Positions 17,801 to 56,475 of a stretch of 64,000 bases of DNA are shown here, one piece after another. Source of the DNA: Echinarachnius parma (Eukaryota; Echinodermata; Echinoidea; Clypeasteroida; Echinarachniidae); the NCBI GenBank assembly GCA_037951105.1, contig JBAMJV010001399.1, forward strand, positions 113,501-177,500. The letters run 5' to 3'. Within the stretch, counting starts at the first letter, position 1, and each line of letters begins with the position of its first letter. Under the pieces are notes generated by a model that did not search any database, was not told where the DNA came from, and saw nothing but the letters and a program-made list of their open reading frames with translations. Made by a program: the position numbers and the translations under genes.

Positions 17801-19913
17801 GGTCTGTTTATGACTTTAAGCCAGCCTAAAGTTTGCAGGTTTAACTAATCTGAAGTGGGAACTAAAGTGTGCATTAGTTACTCCAAAGTTTAAACTTAGT
17901 CCAGCCTAAGTTGATAAATTTAGTAGAATATCGCCCATTGGCCTGAATTCTTATCAGTGGCTCAACTTGAGCCCGGCCTAAAAACACAAAGACTACAGGT
18001 AATCAGTTAAACCATTTTGCACCTGCAGCTTTATTGATTGTTGCTTTCCACCACCAGAGATATTCTTGTTTCCTTTCATTATCCAGTCAATTCCTCTAGT
18101 TCTGTTTAGAAATTTACAAAGGGCTGCTTGCTATTTATAACTGGTCACCAGCAATACAATGTCCTGGATGATCCAGGACGCAAATTGGCTGATGACCGAC
18201 TACTATGACTGAATTTCAAAGGGCCCATTGTCCTGATGCCTATAAGCAGAACTCAAGGGATTAACTGGATAATGAAAGGAAACAATTAGAATATCTCCAG
18301 TGGGGAATAGCAACAAGACGATAGGTCTACAGGTACAAAATGGTTTAACAGGTTACGGTAGTCTTTGTCTTTTTAGGCCGGGCTCAAGTTGAGCCACTGA
18401 TGAGAATTCTAGCCATTGTGTTTAAACGCTGAATACCCAATATTTCTGTTTCACTCCTTCCAGGCCCTCTCCTTCACGATATCTTCATTCTTCGTAGACC
18501 CCATGAAGTACGCTGGGCGTGCCTTAAGCGAGTTCCACGCGGAACTCTTTCAGAATCTTCCGGTCTGGGGCGGATGCCTAGCGCTCGTGTCATTCTACGT
18601 TATCGCATTCCTCGGCCTCTATGCCTACATCGCCGCGCCGCGACGGGTGCAGAGAGAGCACCGTCGGCTGGCTGGGTTGAGGAGACGGGAGGAGCGGGAG
18701 CATCGTGCCCTGAAGGGTGGGCGCAGACAAGAGCTTCAGGTGGGTCAGATAATCATTGGTTACTAAGGTGGTTATTACTGTAGATTTTCTTCATTTATTT
18801 TAGTCTTTTATATGTTAGAGTGTACTGTATGCTTTTCTGTCATAGCTAGAAATACATTATAACAGATCAATGTCTGTAATGCAATCGTAGGAGAAACTAA
18901 CCATAATATTATTTCAATGGCTGAACAAAAAACTAAAAGGAGAAGTAATTCAAATATGCGATTATAATTATGTGATTATAATCTTAATTGACGAATACAA
19001 TTTCAATTCATTTTCATTTCCTCAGTATGGGAGGCAGTATTCTGATATGGAAGACGAAGAAGATTATGATGACCATGGAGGCAGAAGAGTCGAGAATGTT
19101 GCCCATCCACCCACACTACCTCCTAGAGCTCAAGCAGCCCAAAGACCATCAAGGAGTCAGGATGCGCAAGATCTACCCAAGAAACAGATGAAGCCTGCAA
19201 CGGCTCTAGATGACCTGGGGTATGAAGGGACCAGGTCGGGAGCAAGGAGCCAAGACCCAATGGGACCAGGAGGCCTCAGTCCTAGGGAGTCATCAGAGGC
19301 CTTTCCTGCAGAACAACAACCAAAGCCAGGTAGGCATGCCTTAAAGAGCAGATCATCACAGGCACTTCCCGTTGCAGATCAACCAGCAGCTGTTAGACCA
19401 AAGGAAAGGTACACAGTGATGCAACAGTGTGGGGATGAAGCAGACATCAGCAGCTTGGAAGCTTCTGGAATCCAGAGGCCAACCAGACTTCCTGAGGGCA
19501 GATCAACAAGGACCAAGCACTCCCCAACACAGACCTCGGTAGGAAGCACATACTCTGGCAATATGACAGCGCACCCGGCTTCCGAGCGCTCTGACGTGGA
19601 GTCTCTGGTCAGTTCTGTAGTGGATCCCACCTGGGTAAACGAGCCGGAGGGTAGTGTCCTTAGGGGACAGGATCAAATCGGAGGAGCAACAGAGTGTTCC
19701 TCTCCTGTCTCCGTAGACAGCCCCAGTGACTTCTCTGTCCTCAGTCAGTCCCCAGAGAATACGAATAGCGCCACCTATGAGTTTATTTCGACCAGTGGCA
19801 TAGGGTCAATTGATGGGGAGGAAGGATCACAGTCAGAGACTCTTCATGAGAACCAACACGAGAATGACTATGATGACGATGACTTTGTTGTACTGAAAAC
19901 AGAGACCCAGTGA
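5611..19913 (+). CDS. CLCC1: CLCC1-like ER chloride channel gene (seven coding exons)
   Basis: Seven exons join in a single frame: 5611-5895, 6618-6821, 7771-7998, 8227-8370, 15699-15893, 18464-18739 and 19026-19913. Each junction has GT/AG and phase 0, giving 739 codons. An in-frame TGA at 5602 bounds the 5' side. Met20 (5668) starts a classic signal peptide in better context, so the natural product may be 720 residues. Recognition rests on the conserved core: WNWIFLYQ after paired membrane helices, then PHKMSWSQSLSEWYRTTW, DPC, VDPLLDIPPS, SFFVDPMKYAG and a third helix, in the same order as in vertebrate CLCC1. Known CLCC1 is an ER/nuclear-envelope membrane protein described as an anion channel with effects on ER ion balance. 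The acidic C-tail (about 295 residues) is longer than in human (551 aa total, from memory). Confidence 0.9.
6371..6502 (+). pseudogene. Decayed duplicate of CLCC1 exon 2 in intron 1
   Basis: The segment starting gatgatctggtggaggc closely follows exon 2 (gatctggcagaggctaaaaggcagctggag at 6621) and ends with a match to ccccgctccacccccatgtga (here ccccactccaccctcatgtga). About 40 extra bases lie in the middle, and the frame shared with exon 2 meets a stop at the tga of 6458-6460 (aaggggttgaatg). There is no polypyrimidine acceptor. It is a relic tandem exon duplication, unlikely to be spliced in. Confidence 0.7.
6618..6821 (+). CDS. CLCC1: CLCC1 exon 2: luminal coiled/Cys segment
   Basis: Encodes 68 residues in phase 0-0 between tttcag and gttagt. 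The start NDLAEAKRQLENC continues a helical stretch begun in exon 1, corresponding to the Cys-containing luminal helix of CLCC1. A proline/cysteine-rich patch (DCPAPPPCDC) follows, then DDMFFFRLTRHLVDILQ, a hydrophobic-acidic helix matching the FRRYLNKIL-type helix in vertebrates. Confidence 0.85.
7095..7330 (-). repeat. Fragment of a SINE-like repeat shared with 24588-24990
   Basis: tatagcacctaatatgatt...ataagcgctttacc closely resembles tatagcacgtaatgatt...ttaagcgctttcc at 24588. It is only a piece, without a clear B box. It sits in CLCC1 intron 2. Confidence 0.4.
7466..7716 (+). repeat. Two extra tandem copies of the exon 3 splice acceptor
   Basis: Three tandem units, at about 7466-7568, 7614-7716 and 7719-7830, each carry a tgatgtc-atggga stretch, a pyrimidine tract, cacatcag, and the first ~45 bases of exon 3 (taccagacagtgggccagtg). 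Only the third continues into the full exon. Use of the second copy (acceptor before 7673) would soon meet a stop (catcaataa). The first (before 7519) has drifted further. Confidence 0.8.
7771..7998 (+). CDS. CLCC1: CLCC1 exon 3: luminal domain before the membrane
   Basis: Encodes 76 residues, from VPDSGPVTAQIGVRLS to GEQINFKSPGIVL, phase 0-0. It matches the luminal region of CLCC1 that precedes the first membrane helix, including the L..LQ.F..G pattern and the W near the membrane (LEWLGEQINFK). NQT at codons 54-56 of the exon is a potential N-glycosylation site on the luminal side. The acceptor is the third of three tandem acceptor copies. Confidence 0.85.
8227..8370 (+). CDS. CLCC1: CLCC1 exon 4: first two membrane helices
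   Basis: Encodes 48 residues, mostly two hydrophobic helices (MSVVVFSLAFGVGMYS and CCLFLAVFVISLIWNWIF) separated by the short polar turn DLYWNRR. The ending SLIWNWIFLYQ parallels SLGWNWMYLYK of human CLCC1, the clearest single family signature in the gene. The donor is tctatcag|gtactt. The following intron is 7.3 kb, mostly a LINE insertion. Confidence 0.9.
8641..8860 (+). repeat. Fragment related to the interior of the hAT elements
   Basis: The phrase gggcccccggaagcttttgg (8751-8770) recurs as ggagcccccggaagctttta inside the hAT element at 25320-26441 and, reversed, inside 54528-59374. Related pieces lie at 22690-22735 and 32230-32280. No ends are seen here. Confidence 0.4.
8990..9062. repeat. 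ATT-rich microsatellite
   Basis: (ATT)n at 8990-9013 followed by imperfect ATT/ATC units up to 9060, directly next to the start of the repeat at 9061. Confidence 0.8.
9061..10057 (+). repeat. Tandem ~150 bp repeat element with AGGTCA direct repeats
   Basis: Begins with a near-perfect hairpin (atgcctccgcaacg...cggaggcat), then gtccgtccgtacgt repeats, then about three diverged ~150 bp units with tttggggtcatgaggtcaa, cacaggactca and tatatgcaaaaat. The first unit has aggtcaaaggtcaaaggtca (9210-9229), three direct half sites spaced by one base. A TTAA MITE (9618-10005) and the LINE at 10058-15588 interrupt it. It resumes at 15589-15640 with aggactcattatatgcaaaa. This is a common repeat type in marine invertebrate genomes. 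Confidence 0.7.
9618..10005. mobile_element. TTAA-flanked MITE, short-TIR family
   Basis: TTAA (9614-9617) then AGGGACTTAGTAAC at the left; GTTACTAGATCCCT then TTAA (10006-10009) at the right. The TIR is 14 bp with one mismatch. TTAA target choice is typical of the piggyBac superfamily. No transposase is present. It is inserted inside the 9061 repeat. Confidence 0.7.
10360..13317 (-). CDS. LINE ORF2: endonuclease and reverse transcriptase
   Basis: 985 residues without a stop. An apurinic-type endonuclease occupies about residues 45-255: LHVNCRSLPKHY (46-57), SETWLD (77-82), GDFNLDLL (184-191) and the catalytic ISDHLPF (249-255). The reverse transcriptase spans about 475-760: NYRPISLLP, FLDFQKAFDSISHD (623-636), GVPQGSILGP (681-690) and LLFADDTNIF with the catalytic FADD at 712-715. 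The C-terminal part ends with the usual GPLLWNKL segment. All key catalytic residues are present, so the protein could be functional. It is typical in length for the group. The exact start codon is uncertain; the upstream frame in the same region is not otherwise supported. Confidence 0.9.
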   Translation of the reverse strand: MSVLLNNVNADVEDALLEEAGNDSIYVTPESFSTFCSTMNNAFSTLHVNCRSLPKHYEDIQTLLLSLNCSLDVIAFSETWLDENIKNDVCFEGYNMEHTVRNDRRGGGISLAIKDNIKYITRKDISVFNDQCESLFIEILKPGKHIVIGGFYRPPDQSKAIFIDTLKQILRSLQKEKKECIFLGDFNLDLLKLDVQYSCNEFLELLYSFSFYPLTIKPTRITDTTATLIDNIFTNSSCSVLPGIITTDISDHLPFFSLFDYKDIHREDSVIYKHDINDENIANFANYLGGIDFDCILDSCYEDPNYKYSKFMTIFVDAYDHCFPIKRVKIKRRNKQWFSKKLKKMCARKNKLYKKYVKKPTAQKKERYNKCRNSYTKQIRAAKRQYYLSKFNTFKGNINKTWKLINDVLQRSKKCSNSSVFTLNGLLLTDPQDIAEGFNDYFKDIGQSIANKNLTNTNVHFTSFLTQYYPHTAFFVPITVKEIIDHTLSFKNGKAPGFDSIDVYVVKTIIHLICKPLCNIFNLCLEQGIVPNDLKIAKVIPIHKKRPKDIFSNYRPISLLPFFSKIFEKCIYSRLLNFLDRHDILSNKQFGFRAKHSTAHALSNFLVHVSQAMENNEIIVGIFLDFQKAFDSISHDVLLAKLHYYGIRGTTLNLFQSYLSDRKQFTVYDFKYSSQQPVCCGVPQGSILGPLLFLIYINDLHLVSPLLHFLLFADDTNIFYQHKDPDYLMETLNIELRKVCEWIKANRLQLNYEKTHIMVFNANKENIDKIQIYMDDKEIQHTDSTKFLGVIIDRDLKWRSHVCDILRKISKMIGIMGKLQDTLPQTVLLLLYNTMVLPYISYCNIIWGSCNKYLLDRIYLLQKRAVRIICHKPFLSHSRPLFLSLNILPICLLHEFQLGVFMYSYYHNLLPMTFNNMFQCNSDVHQYNTRFASDTRLIYGRKSFSNSIFLYKGPLLWNKLANDIKQCATLSTFKRKLKMYLMQQI
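13613..14145. mobile_element. TTAA-flanked MITE inside the LINE
   Basis: Flanked by TTAA (13609-13612 and 14146-14149). The TIRs AGGGGTAGTTTAGTTTTGGT and its mirror accaaaactaaactacccct are perfect over 20 bp. Internal blocks such as ttcgagcatggt and gcgccctc identify other family members at 3905, 36690, 37228, 40690, 61985 and 62613. It is inserted between LINE ORF1 and ORF2, hence younger than the LINE. Confidence 0.9.
14364..15182 (-). CDS. LINE ORF1: coiled-coil RNA-binding protein
   Basis: 272 residues. A Gln/Pro-rich start, then a long heptad-type helix at about residues 65-128 (dense E, K, Q and L), then RRNCLRIFGIEE (132-143), which opens an RRM-like fold as in L1-type ORF1 proteins. 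VFKDRLQLDVSAADIERSHR follows, and a C-terminal domain with GISIQEDLTAKNQALYHKV. This is the nucleic-acid-binding chaperone expected upstream of ORF2. It ends about 1 kb before ORF2; 533 bp of that gap is the MITE insertion. Confidence 0.8.
   Translation of the reverse strand: MPITRKKPQVQAQTQGQGAGVQDSEQQAEPETQHLQTPASLITEVMGDLLVNPTFQKQLQDMVKSMVKEIADATYHRLKEYSEENRGAIHDLEVKVEESQKELRSLHQQIETQQNQLDILKKSANDQEQYSRRNCLRIFGIEEKRNEDPDRLLIDVFKDRLQLDVSAADIERSHRVGKMKPGKHRALIIKLCSYRVRRNIIQSRRKLKGTGISIQEDLTAKNQALYHKVYTSSKVVSAWTNDGKIFAQVQATGGKTSVAIVSSDADLVRLNI
15699..15893 (+). CDS. CLCC1: CLCC1 exon 5: conserved loop between membrane helices
   Basis: Encodes 65 residues, phase 0-0 (tatatag| ... agg|gtgagt). 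Contains EETIKRYRKAQ, then LPHKMSWSQSLSEWYRTTW, DPCLDYH and LYLVDPLLDIPPSR. These match the human series [27 protein letters not shown] and LLLVNPIWLVPPTK in order and spacing. It starts just after the LINE-split repeat ends. Confident. Confidence 0.9.
15894..16330 (+). repeat. Diverged tandem copies of the exon 5 end/donor region
   Basis: After the exon 5 donor the phrases gtatccactgctcgatatactgccctcaagtgcgagttactgaaa (from 16025) and gatccactgttcgacatactgccctcaagggtcagttactgaaa (from 16191) repeat the end of exon 5 and its donor (gatccactgctggatataccgccatctagggtgagttactgaaa). The unit is about 160 bp, with two extra decayed copies. They carry remnants of exon coding sequence plus donor, analogous to the acceptor triplication before exon 3. 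Confidence 0.75.
16847..17510 (+). repeat. Tandem array of ~150 bp units in CLCC1 intron 5
   Basis: The phrase cagtcaaacctgtg recurs at about 17033, 17185, 17334 and 17480, with a first diverged copy at 16848. Each unit has atgaccaccaaatgg, ttggccgctataag and attatagacaggttcc. The central units are almost identical, indicating recent unequal exchange. Each unit also contains a half-length sub-repeat (ttggccgctttaaacagg). Confidence 0.85.
17730..17936. repeat. Small fold-back MITE
   Basis: gtattctactgaactaagta at the left is mirrored by taaatttagtagaatatc at the right. Internal cttagttgata, ggtccagattaaactt and gtttaaacttagtcc also pair. No ORF. Confidence 0.55.
17936..18418. mobile_element. 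MITE with ~170 bp TIRs
   Basis: gaattcttatcagtggctca and cttgagcccggcctaaaaa at the left are mirrored by tttttaggccgggctcaag and tgagccactgatgagaattc at the right. Similarity continues inward through aaccattttgcacc, ttgctttcc and tttcctttcattatccagt, so the whole 480 bp folds. It sits just before CLCC1 exon 6, with its right end about 45 bp from the acceptor. Confidence 0.8.
18464..18739 (+). CDS. CLCC1: CLCC1 exon 6: third membrane helix and basic juxtamembrane region
   Basis: Encodes 92 residues, phase 0-0. ALSFTISSFFVDPMKYAG parallels ALAVTFTTFVTEPLKHIG of human CLCC1. The Lys in DPMKYAG appears to sit where human CLCC1 has the Lys implicated in lipid binding (from memory). LPVWGGCLALVSFYVIAFLG is the third membrane helix, followed by a strongly basic stretch (PRRVQREHRRLAGLRRREE) marking the cytosolic side. 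The donor is cttcag|gtgggt. Confidence 0.9.
19026..19913 (+). CDS. CLCC1: CLCC1 exon 7: acidic C-terminal tail (terminal exon, copy 1)
   Basis: Encodes 295 residues plus TGA, entered in phase 0 at cctcag|tatggg. It is a low-complexity, Ser/Pro/Gln/Glu-rich tail with no folded domain recognised. An acidic patch opens it (MEDEEDYDDHGG) and another closes it (NDYDDDDFVVLKTETQ). Vertebrate CLCC1 tails are likewise long and disordered but poorly conserved. A second near-identical copy lies at 28953-29849. Confidence 0.85.
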   Translation, partial: YGRQYSDMEDEEDYDDHGGRRVENVAHPPTLPPRAQAAQRPSRSQDAQDLPKKQMKPATALDDLGYEGTRSGARSQDPMGPGGLSPRESSEAFPAEQQPKPGRHALKSRSSQALPVADQPAAVRPKERYTVMQQCGDEADISSLEASGIQRPTRLPEGRSTRTKHSPTQTSVGSTYSGNMTAHPASERSDVESLVSSVVDPTWVNEPEGSVLRGQDQIGGATECSSPVSVDSPSDFSVLSQSPENTNSATYEFISTSGIGSIDGEEGSQSETLHENQHENDYDDDDFVVLKTETQ

Positions 19914-21225
19914 ATTAAAAAAACTTGACAGTTGATTTATGATTTTTTTTTTTCTTCATCTGTTTATTTTTATTTTGGAATGGAAGCTTAGAATCAATAT
20001 ATTATGTTTGCCATATGATACAAAATGTTTGATTCTGTACAGTTTTGAAATAAGGAGTGATCATTTCTTATATTTTGATAAGATTAATAAGCAAATTTTA
20101 ACAAAACTACTTGCATTTAGCATAGAGATCTCTAATCTATATTTAATATTTATTTTAAATGCATCTTGTATGAAATTAGCAGTATTTATTTGTAAACGAC
20201 ATTTGTAAGGTCTAGCTTGACTAAAAACCAGTCAGATTGGGTTGAGTTGGCTGTGTGTGCATCGAGCTTAAGGGTCACTGTTGTTTGCCCTGATTAAACA
20301 TGTTTCGTTTTATATTTCATCTAAAAAGCCAAACAAAAAATGGTCCTTATCACCTTGCTGCCTAAGTATAAGTTTCATTCTGGTCGAATTTGAAGTGATT
20401 TTTGCACCAATATTGGCAGCTCCAGAACTCGATGTAGAGCAGCTGAAGAATTGAATCTGCAAAAATACTTTTTATTGCAAAATGTGTTGCTGAAATGTTT
20501 GTATTTCATACAATACAGTATAGCCTAGTCAGATAAGTGCCCAAGTAAGTCAAGTACTGAAATATTATGGTGATCCATTAATTTTATAAAATATTTCAAA
20601 AGTTTTAATTGAGACTTCAATCATATACCCATATCATTGAAAGAATCTTCTGAATGATAAATGTTTACCTAGTGATAAAAGTGAACAATTATGTAAGATC
20701 TTATCCCTGATCTTGTGCGTGTTGAATCAAATTTCGGATACTATACACAATCAACGTATCCAAATTCTGAAACTTTTGACTACAATCAAAAAGCTTTTCA
20801 ATTCAATTTAAAATATCTCCACTATTAGGGAGACAGTTGAAAAACCTGTAACCATTAGCCATACAACTTGGTACAAGAGAAGTGTGAAAGCTTCAAGTGA
20901 TTTTGATTGAATTTTACAAAGTAATGGATTACTTTAACAACAAAATAGTTATGTTGGATCATGATATACAAACTATGATAGTTGTAGAGAAAAAATGCTG
21001 CAACTCACAATGTTTTAAATACTTATGGTTGTAATCTAAAGTGTAGTGTAGTCAAATGTAGGTAATACAGCTATTTGAGACAGAAAGTAAATTCTTTTAA
21101 AGTGCAATTTATGGCACAGTCTGTAAGCAATTATTTACTTTTTAAAACGTATTAAGGATGTATACTACAAAAAAAAAAAAATGTTTGAGAAATTATGTAC
21201 ACATGGAGGTGGATTGGTTAGTTGG
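19914..21225 (+). other. Probable CLCC1 3' UTR and flank
   Basis: AT-rich, without ORFs or recognised repeats, and matched closely by 29850-31325 in the duplicate. No canonical AATAAA cleavage signal was picked out with confidence. Confidence 0.4.
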
Positions 21226-21228
21226 TTG

Positions 21229-21386
21229 GTTATTATTTTTGTTAAAGATGCATTCAACCAATTGTGATTATCAACATCTGGGATCGCTCTTTATCATCAC
21301 CATCCGATAGATGCGGCCAAGATTTGAACCCGGGCCGATTATTGCAAAGAGCAGAGCTCTGATTGCTAGACCAGAACACCTCTTCT
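21229..21386 (-). repeat. tRNA-derived SINE (copy 1)
   Basis: Read on the minus strand, a tRNA-like head carries ctggtctagcaatcagagc (A-box type) and, 32 bases later, cgggttcaaatct (B-box type). The body runs to caattggttgaatgcatc near 21260. The duplicate has the same element at 31330-31500, so it predates the duplication. Confidence 0.6.
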
Positions 21387-21841
21387 TGTGGCACGATCAG
21401 AAAAGTGCTTGACCCAAGTTCTAACCCAATCTATGCCCCCGCATTTTATGTCCTTTAGCAATGCATTTAATCCACGTTGTTGCTCTCTACCCAAGAGTAT
21501 AAATAGGTACTTGGTCAGATATTATATCACCCCATATACATGTAGAAGAGCATCTTGGGCTAGTATGCTCCCCTGGGAGTTGAGATGGTGCACAAGATAT
21601 TTGTGTGGGTTTGAACTGTACCTGATGATCAAAGGTAATAATGCGCCTATGAATAGGGTACCTAATGGCGCTCTATAAATGCTATATATTATTATCATTA
21701 TTATTATGTGTTCTGATTCAAACTCAATGAAAAGTTGCTTGTGAATCACTTATGTAACCAGTGTCCACATTATAAGCAAATGAACAGGAAGTCCTAGGAA
21801 AAGGTCATAGAATTAAAGTCTTAGCAATTCTACTAAGAGCC

Positions 21842-22400
21842 TAACTCAAGTGAACGCTAGCGGGGCTAGCGTTCAAGGTCGGGCTGATAGTGCCCCCGAA
21901 TTTATGATCTAATGTGCACAATAAGTGTGCTTAAAATTATACATATGATACGGTACTTACCACCGATTAGATGATACATATGTGATGCAACTATGGGGTG
22001 GATCAGAATGATGATTTTTCGCTCCATTCCGCATCAAAATGAGTGATTTATGCACCTCCTCGACTTCTATCTGTGTTGTATCGCGACTTCTGAACGATCG
22101 ATGATCGCGCGAACAGTCTCCATTCAAGTACCGCGCCCGCCGAATAGTTCAGAAGTCGCGATACAACACAGATGGAAGTCGATGATGTGCATAAATCACT
22201 CATTTTGATGCGGAATGGAGCGAAAAATCATCATTCTGATCCACCCCATAGTTGCATCACATATGTATCATCTAATCGGGGGTAAGTACCGTATCATATG
22301 TATAATTTTAAGCACACTTATTGTGCACATTAGATCATAAATTCGGGGGCACTATCAGCCCGACCTTGAACGCTAGCCTCGCTAGCGTTCACTTGAGTTA
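21842..22400. mobile_element. Near-perfect palindromic MITE, 9 bp target duplication (Mutator-like)
   Basis: 559 bp with TIRs of about 250 bp on each side: taactcaagtgaacgctagc at the left mirrors gctagcgttcacttgagtta at the right. The site duplication ctaagagcc occupies 21833-21841 and 22401-22409. Copy 2 of the large duplication has the uninterrupted site (about 31955), so this is a clean insertion. Long TIRs and a 9 bp duplication fit Mutator-like elements. A decayed relative lies at 37429-37794. Confidence 0.9.
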
Positions 22401-22409
22401 CTAAGAGCC

Positions 22410-24090
22410 ATGTCTGATTAAGGATGTGTACAAGAAACAATGCATGAGAAATTAGTACAAATGTCAAATTCCAAACTCATTCAAAATTTGCTTGTGTATA
22501 ACTTATTAACCTTTGGCCGCATTATAGTGATGGGTGTTCACTTTGGCAATCTTAGTAAACTCGAGTTTGGTTTGTGTTTTGCTTCATGCCAGCATACTAA
22601 CTGTGTGCAATCCAGCATACTAACCATCTAACTGTGTGCTGATTCCAGCATGAAGCGCTTTGGGCCTGCCTTAGGGTGTATGACGGGGGGTCCAGGGGGC
22701 AGAGCCCCCAGGAAGATTTGGACTTTTCATTTGTATAAATTTAGTCAAAGGGTCATAATTTTGTATTTCCTCATTGATTTTGCTCAAATTTGTGGTTTTG
22801 TTTTGAATAAGGTTTGAATCATGTTCTGATCATGGTGCTAATTACATTTCTCTATTTTACCTTTGCTAGATTTATCTCTCTTTGAAGTTGAATGTATATG
22901 ACTGCTTTGTGTTGTATGTGACTTAGTTTCCATTACATGTACCTTCCTATATGGAGGGAAATAGATGAATTGTGTATGTAAAAGTCTTAAATATAAGTTT
23001 GATTATAATGTGATGTAACAAGTGTGACATTTTGTTTTGTGTTGTGTGTCAAAGATAAACATATAGATGCAATATTATTGTCAAAGTAAAGTTATACTGA
23101 TTAAATTGTAAATTAAGCTGTAACTTTTGTTTTCACTTTGCATTTATTATTCTATTTTGCAAGTAACTGTATCCAGACAGTTTGGTCAGCAACATTTTAT
23201 TTTCTACAGACACATCCACGCTAACTTTTGAGTACAGTGAGACCTCATACAGAACCCTGCTTATTATCATATGTCAATCACTGGTCAGCTAACGGTACAA
23301 AAAGAACATATTATAGCTCGCACTGCATGCTTCCATACAATATCTTATCAGTGCCTTTCTTATCCTAATGATGGTTGAGCTTTTCTGACAAAACAACTGC
23401 CATTAAAATTGACAGTGTGTGTTGGTATTGAATTCAAATATTTAATGAAATTTTGAGCAGGCCATCAGCTTGGGCAAAGGTGCATTCCACCAGGTTTTGT
23501 TATTTCATTTATTATTTTGATTTATTTCCTCTTATAGGGTGGATTGCCCTTTCAGCATAGCTGGTTTTCAGAAGGGACTACAAACATCTTATTAGTAACT
23601 GCGTAGTGATTGACTGTTGATGTCACAACCAGAATTTTACTCTGGAGAGTTTATATCTAGTGATATCAAATTAAGAAGAATTACAAATTATTATTATCTA
23701 CGTACAATGTCAGTAGAAGGTTGTACTACTATTATGGCATCACAGATTTTGACAAACTGTCATCTAGAGAAGGTGGCAAACAAATATGACGAAATCATAA
23801 CATTTGCTCGGGGTTTAAATTTACTCTCGTTTCATTCAATTCACATTTATATTTAGGGAAAACTTTTGTAATACTGTGCCCATGCCGTATGTTTGTGGAT
23901 CACAGGTAAAAATAACTTTAACAATAATTTATTTCCTTTATTGTACACATTATGCATGCAATTGAATTGTAAAGAAATACTTCATTTCTCATGGTTCTTG
24001 AACAATTGCATTCCAAACTATTACTACACCCACTCTGTCATAATTGTCAGAGCGTATATTATGATAGCCTTCGAAAACCATATTTGAAGG
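22410..24090 (+). other. Duplicated non-coding stretch
   Basis: Matches 31960-33415 in the second copy. It contains one fragment with ccagggggcagagccccc (22692) related to the hAT interior. No gene is recognised; short open frames differ between copies and are not conserved. Confidence 0.5.
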
Positions 24091-24094
24091 AATT

Positions 24095-24265
24095 TTGGCG
24101 TAGCTATCGAGGGGCACGTGCCCCTAAATGATTGATATAACATTAGCCTTATTATATAATCATCATAATGTGTAATCCTTAGCAAAAACAAAAACAAAGT
24201 ATGCCCCAAATTATTTGCATGCCCCCCCCCCCCCCTATTCAGTCCGACCAAGCTACGCCTCCAAA
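24095..24265. repeat. Small hAT-like MITE remnant
   Basis: tggcgtagct at the left is mirrored by agctacgcctcca at the right, and the centre has gaggggcacgtgcccct and a C run. A copy at the matching place in the duplicate (about 33430-33600) is more worn. Confidence 0.4.
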
Positions 24266-24587
24266 TATCATGAACACACACAGGTGCATTGTTGTATTAT
24301 TTGTATTGATTTGGTTTCCAAACTCAACATGGAAATATAAATAGAATACAGAATGAGGAACTAAAAACGTTTTTTTCATGCATATCGCATTTTAACAAAT
24401 ATAATTGAGGTTGGAGGAGGCTGACCCATTCCCACCATCTGTGTTGACATAGCTGGTCTTCCGTGAGGTTCCTTTACAGAATGCACAAATAAGCATTCTA
24501 TTTATATTTTGCTTGCATTATGATGACGGGAGTATTACCCTGGTAAACGGATGCACACTGCAATAACAATAAAACTACTCGACTTAT

Positions 24588-24990
24588 AGCACGTAATGAT
24601 TAATAATCATCTCTATTAAGCGCTTTCCAGTTTATACAATAATATTATCCCAGTCATATGATATAATGCAAACCAGCACACATTGTGCGCATAATCTCCA
24701 CTACCTGGGGAGCATTCCTTCCAAGTTGCTCATGGGCATTGAGAAGATAATTCCTGTATACAAAATGCACATTTTCTACTCCGTATAGCGAGTATTCCCT
24801 CCCAGTTGCATGTTAGGCGTACATAGTGCTACGGAAAACGTTCTGATTTTTTCCGGGTGCAATACACCTGGGTAGAGAGCAGAGAAATTGTCTATCTGAA
24901 GGACATATGCAAATTAAGGACAATACACTGGATTCGAACTCGGGATCCCACTCTTCCTATCTTGCCACACCACGCCAGCACGTCGATGAC
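24588..24990 (-). repeat. SINE-like repeat with B-box-like end
   Basis: Minus strand gggatcccgagttcgaatcc (24926-24945) resembles a Pol III B box in a tRNA-like head. The far end is tatagcacgtaatgatt...ttaagcgctttcc (24588-24628). A diverged match lies at 34040-34400 in the duplicate, and a fragment at 7095. Confidence 0.45.
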
Positions 24991-25319
24991 AATATCATTC
25001 ATATTTAGTATCATATAAAAGATGATACATTTATGTACATATACATGTATTATAAATAATACAATTCTAATAGGACATATTCATCTTTTTTGTTTCATAA
25101 TTTATAACAAGTTGATGATGTTCAAATGCTTTACATACAGATCAACAAAATTCAGTTATTCCCCATTTCCTGCTTGGATAGAAAATGGAATCATAGTACA
25201 GATACCATTATTGTCCCTGTGTTTGATCATACCACACCCACAGGATGATGAAAACAAGTTTCAAAGCCAACTCCGGACTAATTCACGCTTCGATAACCAA
25301 CGCACCCCCTGGCTACGAG

Positions 25320-26441
25320 CAGGGGCGTCGATCCTTTTTTGCGATTGGGGGGGCGAAATTTGAAAAAAAAATTCCAGAGTGACCACTGAGAGAGCTAAAA
25401 GCCCCACATTGGCATGCCCGGAAGTTTTATTATGCGCTCATTGAAAGTGTCTTGATGGCTCGAAGACCTGACTTTGGGGGGGCACCCACATTTGGGGACA
25501 ATAATGGGGGTCCAGGGGGCGGAGCCCCCGGAAGCTTTTAGATTTCAGACATTTGCAACTCCTATCATGGGTGTTAAAATTGTATAAAATAGTGAACCTA
25601 CTCGTAACGTATTTTTAAAGGGCATAGCGAGGAAAAGATTGAGCCTTGCATGAGATGGATCCACGTGATCCTGTATACTATAGAGCCATCGATATAGTCT
25701 AAGACATTGGGCTCCCGTGAAACTAAGCAAGGGCGTCAACAACTTCTCAAAAGTGGAGGAGAGACATTGCGAGGAAGCGAAGCGACCGAGCGGGGGAGGG
25801 TGTGGGAGGGGGTGTCCCCCTCCCACAGTAGGGAGCTTTTGTATTTTGGGGCGTGAAATTGTGCGATTTGGTGCACACCTGAGACAGAAATTTCACGTAA
25901 TAGGAAGTATATACGTATGGAACCAACCATAATGACAAAGGGAGGGGGACAATCTCCTCCACTTTCAAATGTGTGGGGACATGATATTCCAATTTGATTT
26001 GCGTTCAGCGCATATGGACCGAATTGACTGAAAGATATATTTCAGATTATTTTATTTTCTGTGACGGTGTGCTATCTATAGATGAGGGTTTTATATAAAC
26101 TTCGTTTGAGGTGTGCGTTTGAGAAATTACACTGCCCAACACATTTCGAAAGGTGAGTTCCCGCAACCAAAATTAAACTTGCAATATGAGAAACTATATG
26201 CGCGCGAAGCGCGCGGCAAAAAAGAGATTTACAGTCCTTTTCAAACTAAAAAAAGGGCTATTTTGAAGATGAATTATTGATAAATGTGTCTTTCCCCTCT
26301 TTGGCATTATATCACTCGATTTTTTTCTTCCTCATTTTCGGAATTATTGGGGGGGCGAAATGATATGTTCGCCCCCCCAATATTTTCATTGGGGGGGGGG
26401 GGGGCGACCGCCCCCCTGCCCCCCCAGGATCGACGCCCCTG
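25320..26441. mobile_element. Non-autonomous hAT element
   Basis: 1122 bp with perfect 15 bp TIRs, caggggcgtcgatcc and ggatcgacgcccctg, flanked by the 8 bp duplication gctacgag (25312-25319 and 26442-26449). TIRs beginning CAGGG and 8 bp duplications are the hAT signature. No transposase frame. The interior has gggtccagggggcggagccc and a G/C run near the right end. The same family in reverse orientation is at 54528-59374. It is absent from copy 2 of the duplication. Confidence 0.9.
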
Positions 26442-27084
26442 GCTACGAGCCTGGGTAGTGGTGTGAGTGAAAAGAACATACTATAATAATTCTACATTCA
26501 TGGGCGTATAACGGAGCACATTTTATTAGGGGGGTAAGGTCTAATGCCCGAACCATTACCCTTCCCGCCTTTTCAGCCTGACAAGAATAACTACATGATG
26601 CCCGAATATGATGGAACAGACTCAATTTTGACCAAATATGAGACGGTTTGGCCTCAACATGACAAAACATTATTACACTGATGTAACGTGAGTTTTGACG
26701 AAGGTGGCATGAGTGTTTCCGAATATGACATTATTTTGACCGAATATGACATAGTTTTGCCCGATTATTGGCGTTTCCAAAACTCCCGGGAGCTGCGACC
26801 CCCAGCCTCCTACGCCCTTGTCTACAATAAATCATGTACAGTAAATTATTAACAATTTAATTGTGCTCATCGTATAAGAACGAAACTATCAGCCCCCTGC
26901 CTACTCCCGACGACTGTTCCACAGAGAATGCGACTGGCATCATTGAATGTGTCCACGTACACCTGGGTGGTATAGTAGAGCAGATAAGTGTAATAATCGT
27001 TCAAAGTTTGATACAAGCAACATACTCCGTATGCAGACTACCTTAGGGACACTTTTTAGAAAAAAACATTTAGACAAACGAAAT

Positions 27085-27425
27085 TCCAACATGGCGGCCA
27101 TTGTTGCCAAAAAGCTACTTTTTGATATAAAAATTGACTGAGTTGGCCGATTTTAATAATCTTGGTGTCGTTTAATATGTGTATTGACATGCTGAACACG
27201 ATGGTAATACATACGGACCCATATGATGGCCCAAATCGAAGATGGCCGCCATTTTCCCAAGATGTCCCCCAAAAGCTACTTTTTAATATAGAAACGTACT
27301 GAGTTGGCCGGTTTTGATAATCTCGGTGTTGATTTATATGTTTCTTGATATGCTAAAAACGATGGTGATATAATAGGGACCCATTTGATGGCAAAAATAC
27401 AAGATGGCAGCCATTTTATCACCTT
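27085..27425 (+). repeat. Tandem ~165 bp repeat with ATGGCGGCCATT motifs
   Basis: About two and a half units, each with aaaagctactttttgatata / aaaagctactttttaatata, gagttggccg, aatct(t/c)ggtgt and gatggt. The unit heads are acatggcggccatt (27089), agatggccgccatttt (27240) and agatggcagccatttt (27402). The central motif resembles the YY1 core AAGATGGCGGC. Confidence 0.7.
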
Positions 27426-27429
27426 ATTA

Positions 27430-28726
27430 TGAAGTCTATGTTTTTTAGTTATCGACCGTTTTATTGCTTTTGTTATCCAAGTTTTAGATTTCTTTTTAAC
27501 GGAAGCATTAGGTCTGTTTTTTTTCACTTGGCGCGTGTTTGTCACATATCTGCATGAACCGTTGAAAAAAGGCATTGCAAGCATCATTTGCATCGGAGCA
27601 TATGTAAACGCCTAACCATTGCTCACTCATTAATTCGTTGCTAAATGACTGTACAGAATAATGGAGAAAGTTCCTGCAAGTCACATATTTCTTGCTTGAT
27701 GATGGCGATTTAAACTTTTCAAAAACGGCATAAACAGGGAAATGAGCGGCTATTTCAACATCAATACAACCTGATTGAATATTGTATGATGACATATTTG
27801 TATAAATATGATGAATAAGATATGACGTTCTATGTGTTACTCTAGTTGGCCGATGTATTAATTGGCGTAAACCATAACATTCGGTCATATGTAGGAAATG
27901 TTGGCTTCTGTTATCTAACGATAGCATATTAATATTAAAATCTCCAATAACAATACAAGGATTACGTTCTAAATGTAAGCTATGCAATATCCTATTCATG
28001 TCATCAGTAAAATCATCGAGTATACTGTCTGGTTTTCTATAAACAACACCAACAACAACATGAACATTACCAAACAAAATGTTTAACCATAGTGATTCAG
28101 TACTATTCAAAGATATCCCAGAAATACGTTCATAGCTTAAAGATGAATGAATGTAAGTTCCCACTCCGCCTCCTCTTTGGTTGGTTCTAGATTGATATTC
28201 AAAATTATAACCGTGAATTAAATATTCGACATTTGCTTTTCTGACATTGCTATGATATTAAAATGAGAATGAAATTCATATTCCAAAAGATGTTTTAAAG
28301 CATCAAAATTTCAGTTCAAAGATCTTACATTGACATGTGAAATAGAAAGTGATGATTGCATTGTTTTTTCGAACGATACATGAAAATTGGCTGGAGAAAA
28401 TGACAAAGAGTTTATATTAAATGGATCATTATCAATATCCCTATCAACATTTAAATCATTAGAAGAAACTAAGTCATTGTTTATTATTGTTTTTGTATAC
28501 TTTCGTCGAAATAATTGTCAACAGTTGATAGTTCATACGCCTACTTGATTTTCTTTAAGTCCTCCTCACAATGGATGGCAATCACCTGGTCCTCACTGCT
28601 ACGCCTCACCAGGATGGTGCCATTTGTTGTCCAGAGGAAGCGGTATCCAGCCGTCTTTCTTGCCCCGTTTGCCTTCTTCAACAGCTGCTTGGTCGTCTGA
28701 AGAAGATTCTCATTGATGAAGACCTA
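27430..28726 (-). mobile_element. Second LINE fragment (ORF1 end plus ORF2 endonuclease)
   Basis: Minus strand. A 3' part of ORF1 (about 28715-28530: AGYRFLWTTNGTILVRR and a stop), then ORF2 from about 28480. The longest open piece (28164-27508) carries the endonuclease core YRKPDSILDDF, IVIGDFNINML and RPTRVTHRTSYLIHHIYTN; the expected SDH is EIAAHFP, so a key Asp is lost. The reverse transcriptase and 3' end are missing and stops occur upstream of the open piece. Its right edge coincides with the start of duplication copy 2 (28727). Confidence 0.75.
28533..28715 (-). pseudogene. LINE ORF1 C-terminal fragment
   Basis: Minus strand: FINENLLQTTKQLLKKA, then GYRFLWTTNGTILVRR and a stop at the 28533 side. 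This is the usual C-terminal domain of LINE ORF1 proteins (compare ISIQEDLTAKNQALYHKV in the full LINE at 14364-15182). The 5' part is absent. Confidence 0.65.
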
Positions 28727-28952
28727 TTAGTCTTATATATGTTAGAGTGTACTGTATGCTTTTCTGTCATTGCTAGAAAATACATTATAACAGATCAACT
28801 TCTATAATGCAATCGTAGGAGAAACTAACCATAATATTAATTCAATGGCTGAAAAAAAAATAAAAGGAGAAGTAATTCAAATATGCGATTATAATTATGT
28901 GATTATAATCTTAATTGACGAATACAATTTCAATTCATTTTCATTTCCTCAG

Positions 28953-29849
28953 TATGGGAGGCAGTATTCTGATATGGAAGAGGAAGAAGATTATGATGAC
29001 CATGGAGGCAGAAGAGTCGAGAATATTGCCCATCCACCCACACTACCTCCTAGAGCTCAAGCAGCCCAAAGACCATCAAGGAGTCAGGATGCGCAAGAGC
29101 TACCCAAGAAACAGATGAAGCCTGCAACGGCTCTAGATGACCTGGGGTATGAAGGGACCAGGTCAGGGGCAAGGAGCCAAGACCCAATGGGACCAGGAGG
29201 CCTCAGTCCTAGGGAGTCATCAGAGGCCTTTCCTGCAGAACAACAACCAGAGCCAGGTAGGCATGCCTTAAAGAGCAGATCATCACAGGCACTTCCCGTT
29301 GCAGATCAACCAGCAGCTGTTAGACCAAAGGAAAGGTACACAGTGATGCAACAGTGTGGTGATGAAGCAGACATCAGCAGCTTGAGTTCCTTGGAAGCTT
29401 CTGGAATCCAGAGGCCAACCAGACTTCCTGAGGGCAGATCAACAAGGACCAAGCACTCCCCAACACAGACCTCGGTAGGAAGCACATACTCTGGCAATAT
29501 GACAGCGCACCCGGCTTCCGAGCGCTCTGACGTGGAGTCTCTGGTCAGTTCTGTAGTGGATCCCACCTTGGTATACGAGCCGGAGGGTAGTGTCCTTAGG
29601 GGACAGGATCAAATCGGAGGAGCAACAGAATGTTCCTCTCCTGTCTCCGTAGACAGCCCCAGTGACTTCTCTGTCCTCAGTCAGTCCCCAGAGAATACGA
29701 ATAGCGCCACCTATGAGTTTATTTCGACCAGTGGCATAGGGTCAATTGATGGGGAGGAAGGATCACAGTCAGAGACTCTTCATGAGAACCAACACGATAA
29801 TGACTACGATGACGATGACTTTGTTGTACTGAAAACAGAGACCCAGTGA
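28953..29849 (+). CDS. Second copy of the CLCC1 terminal exon
   Basis: 897 bp, 298 residues plus TGA, fully open, behind an intact acceptor (tttcctcag|tatggg) and in the same phase as exon 7, so exon 6 could splice to it. Compared with copy 1 it has seven substitutions (for example DLPKK to ELPKK, QPKPG to QPEPG, PTWVNEP to PTLVYEP) and three extra residues (SSL after ISS). Only about 225 bp of intron 6 precedes it in the duplicate; no other CLCC1 exon is repeated. It is an alternative last exon, a non-functional duplicate, or an allelic copy placed by assembly. Confidence 0.65.
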   Translation, partial: YGRQYSDMEEEEDYDDHGGRRVENIAHPPTLPPRAQAAQRPSRSQDAQELPKKQMKPATALDDLGYEGTRSGARSQDPMGPGGLSPRESSEAFPAEQQPEPGRHALKSRSSQALPVADQPAAVRPKERYTVMQQCGDEADISSLSSLEASGIQRPTRLPEGRSTRTKHSPTQTSVGSTYSGNMTAHPASERSDVESLVSSVVDPTLVYEPEGSVLRGQDQIGGATECSSPVSVDSPSDFSVLSQSPENTNSATYEFISTSGIGSIDGEEGSQSETLHENQHDNDYDDDDFVVLKTETQ

Positions 29850-30562
29850 ATTTAAAAACTTGAAAGATAATTCCAGATTTTTTTTTCTTCATCTGTTATT
29901 TTTTTATTTTGGAATGGAAGCTTAGAATCAATATTATGTTTGCCATATGATACAAACTGATTGATTCTATACAGTTTTGAAATAAGGAGTGATCATTTCT
30001 TTTATTTTAATAAGATTAATTTATAAGCAAATTTGTTTGAAAAATTCATTTCAAATTTGAACAAAACTAACTGCATGTAGCATGCAGATCTCTAATCTAT
30101 ATTGAATATTTATTTTAAAAGCATCTTGTATGAAATTAGCAGTATTTATTTGTAAACGATATTTGTAAGGTCTAGCTTGACTAAAAACCAGTCAGATTGG
30201 GTTGAGATGGCTCTGTGTGCATTGAGCTAGAGGGTTAATGTTGTTTGCCCTGATTAAACATGTTTCGTTTTATATTTCATCTAAAAAGCCAAACAAAAAA
30301 TTGCCCTTATCACCTTGCTGCCTAAGTATAAGTTTCATTCTGGTCGAATTTGAAGTGATTTTTGCACCAATATTGGCAGCTCCAGAACTCGATGTAGAGC
30401 AGCTGAAGAATTGAATCTGCAAAAATACTTTTTATTGCAAAATGTGTTGCTGAAATGTTCGTATTTCATACAATACAGTATAGCCTAGTCAGATAAGTGC
30501 CCAAGTAAGTCAAGTACTGAAATATTATGGTAATCCATTCATTTTATAAAATATTTGAAATG

Positions 30563-30672
30563 ATTTCTTGCTGAAGGATGAAAATGCAAGAGCATTTATC
30601 TATTCAGATTCAGTTTATTCACACCATAAAACAAAAGTAACAAATATAAATGGCAGTTTGATAATCAAAAGT
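30563..30672 (-). mobile_element. LINE 3' tail insertion in copy 2
   Basis: About 110 bp present only in copy 2, holding tattcagattcagtttattc and accataaaacaaaagtaac. This resembles the reverse of LINE 3' ends in this window (compare tttattcgaccaaaaagcat at 41717). A severely 5'-truncated insertion is likely. Confidence 0.5.
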
Positions 30673-33600
30673 TTTATTTGAGACTTCAATCATATACCCA
30701 TATCATTGAAAGAATCTTCTGAATGATAAATGTTTACCTAGTGATAAAAGTGAACAATTATGTAAGATCTTATCCCTGATCTTGTGCGTGTTGAATCCAA
30801 TTTCGGATACTATACACAATCAACGTATCCAAATTCTGAAACTTTTGACTACAATCAAAAAGCTTTTCAATTCAATTTAAAATATCTCCACTATTAGGGA
30901 GACAGTTGAAAAACCTGTTACCATTAGCCATACAACTTGGTACAAGAGAAGTGTGAAAGCTTCAAGTGATTTTGATTGAATTTGACAAAGTAATGGATTA
31001 CTTTAACAAAAGAATATAGTTATGTTGGATCATGAATCATGATATATAAACTATGATAGCTATGATAGCTGTATAGAAAAAATGCTGCAACTCACAATAT
31101 TTTAAATACTTATGGTTGTCATCTCATGTGTACAGTAGTCAAATGTATGTAATACAGCTATTTGAGACTGGATTTAATATAAACTCTTTGTCATTTTCTC
31201 CAGCTATTTGAGAAAGTAAACTCTTTTACAGTGCAATTTATGGCACAGTCTGTAATCAATTATTTACTTTTAAAACTTATTAAGGATGTATACTACAAAT
31301 TTTTTTTTTTTGAGAAACATGGAGGTGGATTGGTTAGTTGGTTGGTTATTATTTTTGTTAAAGATGCATTCAACCAATTGTGATTATCTACGTCTGGGAT
31401 TGCTCTTTATCGTCACCATCCGATAGATGCGGCCAAGATTTAAACCCGGGCCGATTATTGCAAAGAGCAGAGCTCTGATTGCTAGACCAGAACACCTCTT
31501 GTTGTGGCACGATCAGAAAAGTGTTTGACCCAAGTTCTAACCCAATCTATGCCCCCGCATTCTATGTCCTTTAGCAACGCATTTAATCCACGTTGTTGCT
31601 CTCTACCCAAGAGTATAAATAGGTACTTGGTCAGATATTATTTTTGCCTATATCACCCCATATACATGTAGAAGAGCATCTTGGGCTAGTATGCTCCCCT
31701 GGGAGTTGAGATGGTGCACAAGATATTTGTGTGGGTTTGAACTGTCCCTGATGACAAAGGTAATAATGCACCTATGAATAGGGTACCTAATGGGGCTCTA
31801 TAAGTGCTATATATTATCATTATTATTATGTGTTCTGAATCAAACTCAATAAAAAGTTGCTTGTGAATCACTTATGTAACCAGTGTCCACATTATAAGCA
31901 AATGAACAGGAAGTCCTAGGAAAAGGTCATAGAATTAGAGATGATTAGCAATTCTACTTAAGAGCCATGTCTGATTAAGGATGTGTACTTAAAAAAAAAC
32001 AATGCATGAGAAATTAGTACAAATTTTAAATTCCAAACTCATTCAAAATTTGCGTGTGTATAACTTAGTAACCTTTGGCCACATTATAGTGATGGGTGTT
32101 CACTTTGGCAATCTTAGTAAACTAGGTTTGTGTTTGTGCTTTTGTTAGGTTTGTGTTTTGCTTCATGCCAGCATACTAACTGTGTGCTGAATCCAGCATG
32201 AAGCGCTTTGGGCCTGCCTTAGGGCGTCTGACGGGGGTCCAGGGGGCGGAGCCCCCAGGAAGCTTTGGACTTTTCATTTGCATAAATTTAGTCAAAGGGT
32301 CATAATTTTCTATTTCCTAATTGTTTTTGTTCAAATTTGTAGTTTTGTTTTGAATAAGGTTTAAATCATGTTCTGATCTTGGTGCTAATTACATATCTCT
32401 ATTTTACCTTTGATAGATTTATCTCTCTTTGAAGTTAAATGTACATGACTGCTTTATGTTGTATGTGACTTAGTTCCCATTACATGTACCTTCCTATATG
32501 GAGGAAAATAGATGAAGTGTGTACGTAAAAGTCTTAAAGATAAGTTTGATTATAATGTGATGTAACAAGTGAGACATTATGTTTTGTGTTGTGTGTCAAA
32601 GATAAACGTATAGATGCAATATTATTGTCAATGTCAAGTTATACTGTCTAATTAAATGGTAAATTAGGCTCTAACTTTTGTTTTAACTTTGCATTTATTA
32701 TTCTATTTTGCAAGTATCTGTACAGGTTGGTCAGCAACATTTTCTTTTCTAGGGACATCCATACTAACTTTTGAGTGCAGTGATACTTCATCATACAGGA
32801 CCCTGCTATTACCACCATTTGTCAATCACTGGTCAGCTAACAGTACAAACAGAACATGCTCAATTCTAGCACGCACTGGATGCTTCCATACAATAGCCTT
32901 TCTTGTCCCAATGATGGTTGAGCTTTTCTGACAAAGCAACTGCCATTAACATTTACAGTGTGTTTTGGTATTGAGCGGGTAAGTCGCATTTCACCGGGTA
33001 TTGTCATTGCATGTATTATTTTTTATTTATTTCATCTCATAGGGTGGATTGCCCTTTCAGCCTACTATTAAGGCATCACATATTTTTACAAACTGAAACT
33101 CTCATCTAGAGAAGGTGGCAAATATAACATGACAAAATCATAACATTTAATTTGCGCGGGGTATAAATTTACTCTCCTTTCATTTATATTTAGGGAAAAC
33201 TTTTGTAATACTATGCCTATGCCGTATCTATATGTTTGGGGATCACAGGTAGAGTTAATCACCTGATTGTACACATTATGCATGCAATTGAATTGTAAAG
33301 AAATACTTTATTTCTCATGATTTGTGAACAATCGTTTTCCGAACTATTACTACACCCACTCTGTCATAATTATCGTAGCGTATATCATGATGGTCTTCCA
33401 AACCAGATTTGAAGAAGTATTGCTGTAACTATCGAGGGGCACGTGCCCCTAAATAATTGCTATAACATAAGCCTTATTATGTAATCATCATCATGTGTAA
33501 TCCTTAACAAAAACAAAATAAGTATGCCCTAAATTGTTTGCATGCCCCCCCCCCCCCCCCCCTCCCATTCAGTCCGACCAATGCAAGCTACGCCTCGGAA

Positions 33601-33839
33601 TATTATGAACAAACACAGGTGCATTGTATTATGTTGTATTTAATTGGTTCCAAAATCAACATAGAATACAGAACGGGGAATATCGTATTGTAACAAATAT
33701 AATAGAGGTTGGAAGATGACACATTCATCACCATCTGTGTTGACATAACTGGTCTTCCATTGGCTCCCTACTGGGTGGCCCAACAAAAAAAGGAACTGGG
33801 AACTTTCCAAAATATAGTAGCAAAGTGATTATGTCCATT

Positions 33840-33965
33840 GGATAGCATGATCGTGTTTAAAAAAAAAGCTTTTGCTTGCAAGCAATTGCTTGTTTGTGTG
33901 CATACCGATTCAAGCAAAAGGCTAGCACAAGCAATTGCTTGTTTTTATGCATACGGCCCATTGTA
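33840..33965. repeat. AAGCAATTGCTT palindromic repeats
   Basis: Copies of aagcaattgcttg at 33877-33890 and 33930-33943, with tgcttgcaagca (33873) between TIR-like acgatc/gccca ends. Copy 1 lacks this stretch. Confidence 0.45.
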
Positions 33966-34204
33966 CAACAACGTTTTTTTATCTAATATTATTTTAATTG
34001 CATTATGATAATGGGAGTATGATCGCGTTTTTATTTACACTATCATTATTACCCCGGTCAACGGATACAGACTGCAATCATTCCTGCACACAAAGTGCAT
34101 ATTTTCAAACTCCGTATAGAGAGTTTTCCAGCCATTTGCCTGTTAAACACCTGGGTAGAGCAGCTTGTCTTGCTGAAGGACACACACAAAGGACAATACA
34201 CTGG

Positions 34205-34330
34205 GTGATTTCAAGTATGGTATTTAAGGCCGATGTTAGTGTTTATTAAACGCTAACACCAGCCTTATATTCGAAACTAGTCAAGTATGGTGTTTAAGGG
34301 CCTTAAACACCATACTTGACTAGTTTCGAA
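34205..34330. repeat. Perfect 29 bp-arm palindrome in a copy-2-only insert
   Basis: Arms 34271-34299 and 34301-34329 (tcgaaactagtcaagtatgg... and its mirror) are perfect around a single central G. A diverged half copy and a small hairpin (gttagtgtttattaaacgctaac) precede it. The matching place in copy 1 (about 24915) reads straight through. Confidence 0.8.
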
Positions 34331-35565
34331 TTTGGGATCCCGATACATGCATGGAGAGCTCAAACTCTTGCCACATTCTTGCCACGTGCACCACGCCCGC
34401 ACGTCCACGACATAATCATTTAGTATCATATGAAAGATGATACATTTATATAGATGTATATTATACATAATACATCTCATTAGGACATACTTATGCATAT
34501 TTGTGATTAATACTTTATAACAAGCTGATAATGTTCAAATGATTTACATATGAAACAACAAAATCAGGTATTCCCCACTCCCTGTTTGGATAGAAATAGA
34601 ATTATAGTACAAGTACTTTTATTGTCCCTGTATTTGATCATTATTCACGGTATGAAAAACAACTTCCAAGACTATTTCCGCTTCGATAACTGTGTAGTTG
34701 TGCGAGTGAAAATCACAGAATGTAATAATCATACAATCTTGGGCGTATAGGAGCACAATTTATTTAGGGGGCCGGTGAGGTCTTTTGCCCGAAGAACTGT
34801 CCTTTTTCGTCTCTTCACCTGACAAGCAAAAATAAATTATGCCCGATTTATGATAATTTTAGTCCGGAAAAAAATGCCTAAATATATCATGGCTTTGTAT
34901 AAATATTACAAAACGTTATATTGCCCGTTTGTAACATGAGTTTGCCCATGGGCGTAGGAGCACATGTTTTACAAGGGGGTTGAGGTCTTTTGCCCGAATA
35001 ATTAGCCATCCTATTTTTTTTTAACCAAACAAGCAGAAACAAGTCTTTTCCTCTTTGACGACCGACAATTTCCTAATATGGGACGAGTTTCGCTGAAAAT
35101 CTTTTGTTCTAAAATGTCATGATTTTGCCCAAATTTAAGGGGCTTTTTTGCCTGAATATGGCCGTTTTCAAAACCCTAAGAGGGGGGGGGGGGGGGGGGG
35201 CTGCAGCCCCCTTAGCTCACAGCCTCTTACGCCTATGAGTGCGCCCAAATATCACATGGTTTTGCCCGAAATTGAGGTGTTTTTGCAGGATGATGGGCGT
35301 TTTCATAACTCCCGGGGGCGCAACCCCCAGCCCCCCGCCTCCTACGCCTATGTCTACATGTACGGTAAAGTATTTTTCTCAATGAAATTGAATTAAAACG
35401 AAACTATCCGCCTCTGTTCCGACGACTGTTCCACAGAAAATGTGTCTGGGTGGTAGAATGACGTCATGATTACAAAAGAAAACCACATTTACCGTTATCT
35501 CGGAAAGTTGTATCGAGTGTGCAGTACACTGCGGAATCGAAGTTATGACTTTTATGTAGCTGTAC

Positions 35566-54480
<18,915 letters not shown>

Positions 54481-55723: not shown

Positions 55724-55725
55724 CC

Positions 55726-55756
<31 letters not shown>
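55724..55756. repeat. Poly-G tract
   Basis: About 30 G in a row, inside the element at 55020-56750. Assembly length here is unreliable. Confidence 0.8.
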
Positions 55757-56319: not shown

Positions 56320-56475
56320 ACTCCTCCACACACACACACCCCACACACGCATAAACACACACACACCCTACATTCACACATACACCCATCCTTAATCCTT
56401 CACATACCACATGTGCACACGCACGCACACACACACACATATATACACAAATACACACACTCACACACTATACAC
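56320..56475. repeat. (CA)n-rich microsatellite
   Basis: Several interrupted runs of ACACAC with short spacers, all on the same strand. Confidence 0.85.

Follow-up and report, generated by a model that had tools for sequence, protein, structure and literature searches.

Introduction

In heterotype false duplications, or duplicated overlapping contigs, two adjacent direct copies have unique flanks on opposite outer sides and part of a gene is repeated (PMC9516828, PMC2864568). Criteria for recognizing such overlaps are that the copies lie on separate contigs, are >95% identical, and align to within 300 bp or less of both contig ends. In one assembly 82% of the false overlapping contigs aligned within 10 bp of contig ends, and the same study states that duplications within a contig are rarely mis-assembled (PMC2864568). 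Tandem segmental duplication with interlocus gene conversion likewise yields direct copies, with mosaic or graded divergence and later insertions in one copy. In the VCBP region of amphioxus large haplotype-specific indels and mobile elements lie beside a putative immune receptor gene, and the sequenced clones (alleles) differ by 8.6% (PMC2632668). Amphioxus heterozygosity, 3.2-4.2%, has been called exceptionally high (PMC12862219).

The duplicated block described here lies in a window (the whole stretch of Echinarachnius parma DNA that was analysed) of 64,000 bases, and shares features with each of these systems. Unlike the overlapping contigs, it has no gap, its homology stops short of the putative join, and identity drops to about 80% or lower. 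Compared with segmental duplications with conversion, the case here offers only two copies and lacks an outgroup; conversion can therefore only be inferred. In contrast to VCBP, substitution reaches 19% and both copies are in one record.

Results

The original prediction of a direct duplication was borne out by self-BLAST of the window, which gave direct, collinear blocks. Since E-values were as low as 0.0, a chance match can be excluded. The copies and the self-BLAST blocks are as follows.

18800..26980, + strand: copy 1 of the duplicated block, 8,181 bp
28727..35460, + strand: copy 2 of the duplicated block, 6,734 bp
18800-20600/28727-30560, direct: 94.7% identity
20596-21081/30665-31168, direct: 93.8% identity
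21068-21841/31201-31966, direct: 92.0% identity
22399-23431/31955-32974, direct: 87.7% identity
23726-24334/33062-33666, direct: 81% identity
24968-25230/34389-34641, direct: 81% identity

With more sensitive local blocks the homology extended to 26937/35449, identity ranging from 94.5% down to about 70-76%; about 5.65 kb of columns were alignable. The block comprises the end of the last CLCC1 intron, the terminal exon, the 3' flank and intergenic DNA to just before the SRCR gene. An Rfam scan of the whole window gave no match.

Three coding segments are relevant to the CLCC1 gene.

18413..18763, + strand: ORF with a CLCC1 (MCLC family, Pfam PF05934) exon, upstream of copy 1
19026..19914, + strand: CLCC1 terminal coding exon, copy 1; ORF of 295 codons and stop, splice acceptor TTTCCTCAG
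28953..29850, + strand: CLCC1 terminal coding exon, copy 2; intact, 298 codons and stop, same splice acceptor

The match of the upstream ORF to PF05934 was weak (E 4.9e-5, 22.7 bits; the curated cut-off is 25), and the terminal exons are assigned to CLCC1 by this match in the preceding exon and by the name given in the original prediction. As had been claimed, this exon precedes copy 1 and has no counterpart before copy 2; a second copy did not turn up. Beyond copy 2, SRCR domains were detected at 39.2 and 40.0 kb (Pfam, E 3e-33). The placement of CLCC1 only before copy 1 and of SRCR only after copy 2 had been taken as a sign of joined haplotypes, but it does not discriminate, because this order would follow from any simple direct tandem duplication.

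Both terminal exon copies have an intact acceptor, frame and stop. Copy 2 differs from copy 1 by seven amino-acid replacements and by silent changes in seven codons (dN 0.013, dS 0.026-0.030), and the sole indel is an in-frame 9 bp (three-codon) insertion in copy 2. The dN/dS of about 0.45 is not decisive, being compatible with one constrained and one free copy but equally with two copies under moderate constraint. Over 2,146 bp of sequence flanking the exon there are 16 indels of frameshift size. At that rate the exon should hold 6.6 frameshifts with both copies free (P of none 0.0013) and 3.3 with one free (P of none 0.036); none was found in copy 2. Its intactness speaks for a pair of functional alleles, or for gene conversion. 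An exact 38-mer from the terminal exon had no match when searched in genome contigs.

Divergence between the copies is strongly graded and not uniform, which corrects the earlier account. Non-coding substitution divergence is about 3-4% next to the exon and climbs smoothly to about 19% on the SRCR side; the values from left to right are 3.1% (intron), 5.0%, 3.6%, 2.6%, 3.7%, 6.8%, 10.8%, 14.9% and 19.3%. It correlated with position along the block (Spearman 0.77, 48 bins), and a linear gradient (BIC 2539.9) fitted better than step models (2553.2) or a constant (2669.0), by which uniform divergence is ruled out. Constraint near the gene is unlikely to be the sole cause of the gradient, because two SINE-looking and hence presumably neutral stretches lie in segments that differ by about 2.6% (21196-21700) and by about 15% (around 24.8-25.0 kb). 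Both were read as SINEs by eye, from tRNA-like A and B boxes and an ATT tail, not from a library. Recombination among alleles, and not just gene conversion, would also be expected to make divergence heterogeneous along the copies.

Insertions that distinguish the copies include the following.

21842..22400: foldback (MITE-like) insertion, copy 1 only, with 9-bp target duplication CTAAGAGCC
25320..26441: hAT-like element insertion, copy 1 only, 1.1 kb, with perfect 15-bp TIRs and 8-bp TSD GCTACGAG
31157..31213, + strand: short insertion in copy 2, 33 bp flanked by two copies of GCTATTTGAGA

The element insertions had been said to have clean empty sites in the other copy. This holds for the foldback, whose empty site lies near 31958 in copy 2, the only clean case among the large insertions; the copy 2 site corresponding to the hAT-like element is altered. 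An exact 22-mer of the hAT-like element end had no match in viral contigs. At the short insertion copy 1 holds a single GCTATTTGAGA, at 21070, and the 33 bp are identical, inverted, to positions 28390-28422 of a LINE fragment in the spacer between the copies. This spacer, 1,746 bp between the homology ends and unrelated to either flank, has two parts.

26981..27424: left, non-homologous part; 100 bp unassigned, followed by a 150-bp tandem repeat of about 2.1 units (27107-27417)
27425..28726, - strand: LINE fragment cut off at both ends; ORF1 C-terminus at 28544-28723, ORF2 endonuclease at 27511-28257

The repeat units (27107-27255 and 27268-27417) are 82% identical by self-BLAST, and the repeat meets the LINE at about 27424. 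The LINE, recognized by Pfam (Baculo_FP_2nd, E 2.7e-16; Exo_endo_phos, E 2.1e-7), is 36% identical to the ORF2 at 12538-13044 of the window, and its truncated 5' end lies just where the homology of copy 2 begins on the left. An exact 30-mer of the LINE was without match in viral contigs. The left part of the spacer is a different repeat, so an origin of the duplication by exchange between two LINE copies is unsupported. None of the 64,000 bases is N, so there is no gap between the copies, although gaps may have been filled or N removed.

Discussion

We slightly prefer, at about even confidence, a real tandem duplication to a false one, a choice that sequence alone cannot settle; nor can it tell whether two haplotypes were joined, as originally proposed. 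The gap-free window, the non-homologous spacer and the graded divergence do not match what has been published for overlapping haplotype contigs, and we infer that the junction exists within one DNA molecule. In the preferred reading, a block spanning the CLCC1 tail and intergenic DNA would have been duplicated directly long ago. The SRCR-side half would since have diverged by 10-20%, the gene-side half being kept alike through later exchange (gene conversion) between the copies. The foldback and hAT-like elements in copy 1 and the LINE in copy 2 would have inserted afterwards; alternatively, if unequal exchange between homologues produced the duplication, the parental chromosomes may already have differed in these insertions. 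The tandem repeat may have been joined to the LINE by deletion or by the duplication breakpoint itself. Against this reading, a dead partial copy should show more damage unless recently converted, and highly heterozygous marine invertebrates carry strong allelic differences in places (PMC2632668).

It is quite possible, if somewhat doubtful, that the assembly joined two allelic contigs overlapping on the block without collapsing them, the first running out in the tandem repeat and the second beginning within the LINE. Only the last CLCC1 exon is repeated, and documented partial-gene cases miss 5' and 3' exons; falsely duplicated haplotypes also tend toward more divergent regions (PMC9516828). 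The intact exon copies, with their dN/dS and single in-frame indel, suit alleles, and repeats, at which assemblies break, lie on both sides of the putative join. However, the junction has no gap, and the 1,746 bp lacking homology could be explained only by allele-specific insertions at both contig ends. No position of the join brings the larger overhang below 873 bp, which is beyond the 300-bp limit. Identity is below 95%, a threshold set for vertebrates and therefore weak for this organism, and up to 19% substitution is several times amphioxus heterozygosity.

A heterozygous duplication, in which one chromosome carries the tandem copy (perhaps from unequal exchange between two different haplotypes) and the other does not, is unlikely. 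It predicts intermediate read depth and accounts together for the allele-like differences, the gap-free junction and the insertions at both ends; a tandem duplication specific to one allele, lying within a single contig at haploid depth, has been described (PMC9516828). The junction elements differ, however, and homologous exchange between them is unsupported. It is improbable that a real duplication supplies CLCC1 with a second terminal exon as an alternative to the first, that selection or conversion keeps the two similar, and that the gene can thus end in either of two slightly different tails.

Either outcome is of an ordinary kind and would not surprise a specialist. If the duplication is false, a spurious CLCC1 fragment enters the gene annotation, and the two copies of the block ought to be collapsed into one. 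If the preferred tandem duplication is real, the locus would be a small example of a tandem gene-end copy staying intact beside an SRCR gene, and its clean divergence gradient could be used for studying exchange between copies.

Extent and content of the two copies

The original prediction of a direct duplication was borne out by self-BLAST and by repeat search, both of which gave collinear direct matches running from 18800/28727 to approximately 26937/35449. In the global alignment the homology ended at approximately 26980 in copy 1 and 35460 in copy 2. The main features are as follows.

Features of the duplicated block (window coordinates)
18800-26980, copy 1
19026-19914, CLCC1 terminal exon of copy 1
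25320-26441, hAT-like insertion, copy 1 only
26981-28726, spacer between the copies
27425-28726, minus strand, LINE fragment forming the right part of the spacer
28727-35460, copy 2
28953-29850, CLCC1 terminal exon of copy 2

The duplicated block opens with the final part of an intron, followed by the terminal coding exon of CLCC1 and then by several kilobases of 3' flanking and intergenic DNA. The identification as CLCC1 is based on the exon preceding the block, which matches Pfam MCLC weakly. The homology of copy 2 ends approximately 120 bp upstream of a start codon whose reading frame, judged by eye, resembles a signal peptide. This start codon is probably the opening of the SRCR gene, whose SRCR domains are located at 39.2 and 40.0 kb, downstream of copy 2.

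The hAT-like insertion shares its 15-bp terminal inverted repeats (CAGGGGCGTCGATCC) with a 4.85-kb element at 54528-59374, which is bordered by the 8-bp target site duplication CTAAGTAG. The ends of the two elements are 87-88% identical, and the short one looks like an internally deleted relative. No long transposase frame was seen in the 4.85-kb element. The GC skew is strongly negative (approximately -0.2) across the 6 kb between 56000 and 62000, unlike the rest of the window. Elsewhere there is a large inverted repeat with 1.2-kb arms of 97% identity (45291-46505 and 47772-48968), in which a further pair (46924-47153/47548-47777, 99%) is nested.

The CLCC1 terminal exons

The terminal exons of copy 1 (889 bp) and copy 2 (898 bp) have the same acceptor, the same starting phase and the same stop. 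They differ by seven replacements, silent changes in seven codons and one 9-bp in-frame insertion (dN 0.013, dS 0.026-0.030). In the near flanks 21 indels were counted over 2,146 bp. Of these, 16 had lengths not divisible by three; no indel of this kind was found in the exon copies. The expected number of frameshift-size indels in the exon was 6.6 if both copies were unconstrained (P of none 0.0013) and 3.3 if one was (P of none 0.036), figures that overstate the contrast between exon and flanks because the flanks are richer in homopolymers. The absence of frameshifts favours two working exons or recent conversion.

The spacer and its junctions

The 1,746-bp spacer has no homology to either outer flank. 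Its LINE fragment starts within ORF1 (Baculo_FP_2nd, E 2.7e-16), includes the ORF2 endonuclease (E 2.1e-7) and ends short of the reverse transcriptase. Since the 5' truncated end of this LINE coincides with the start of copy 2 homology, the left edge of that homology looks like an insertion site rather than the breakpoint. Another LINE in the window (10360-15248, minus strand) has an open ORF2 of 988 aa that includes both endonuclease and reverse transcriptase; an ORF1-like frame lies apart from it at 14364-15248.

In the left part of the spacer (26981-27424) a 150-bp repeat is present as two units that have diverged. If there is a true join, it lies at about 27424, where repeat meets repeat; this position was placed by eye from reading frames. 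A 149-bp minisatellite (3.4 copies, approximately 93% matches) is located slightly upstream of copy 1, at 17004-17510.

An insertion in copy 2 (31157-31213) carries 33 bp (31172-31204) identical, in inverted orientation, to LINE positions 28390-28422 and flanked by an 11-bp target duplication. It resembles a templated repair insertion and suggests filler copied during break repair. The template was possibly the nearby spacer LINE, and the piece therefore weakly supports the presence of LINE and copy 2 on a single molecule, but a LINE copy elsewhere in the genome is just as plausible a source.

Tandem duplication or assembly artefact

The argument for an artefact drawn from flank order, with CLCC1 upstream of copy 1 and the SRCR gene downstream of copy 2, carries no weight, because tandem duplication and overlapped allelic contigs alike give the order CLCC1-block-block-SRCR. 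A real tandem duplication has, in our estimate, an even chance of being correct. That two allelic contigs overlapping on the block were joined without collapsing is a tentative reading, short of even probability. The intact second exon and the allele-like insertions speak for it, and false duplications of partial genes are documented, with gaps sometimes falsely filled (PMC9516828). However, the sequence is without N, homology does not reach the join, divergence is high, and the case falls outside published criteria for overlapping haplotype contigs; duplications within one contig are reported as seldom false (PMC2864568), which also counts against an artefact. That only one chromosome carries the duplication is improbable.

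Substitutions per aligned column, excluding the exon and the hAT-like insertion, were 3.1% (intron), 5.0%, 3.6%, 2.6%, 3.7%, 6.8%, 10.8%, 14.9% and 19.3% in successive segments. By BIC a linear logit model described the divergence better than all step models, and BLAST blocks, computed independently of the global alignment, gave the same trend. Amphioxus, termed exceptionally heterozygous, shows 3.2-4.2% (PMC12862219), and an amphioxus immune-gene cluster up to 8.6%, indels included (PMC2632668), whereas the E. parma copies differ by 15-19% at the SRCR side; between alleles this would therefore be extreme, though possible. The gradient is predicted neither by a plain recent duplication nor by two alleles of the same age. 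It needs either exchange between the copies, which would be gene conversion if they are paralogous and crossing-over if they are allelic, or a coalescence time growing towards the SRCR gene.
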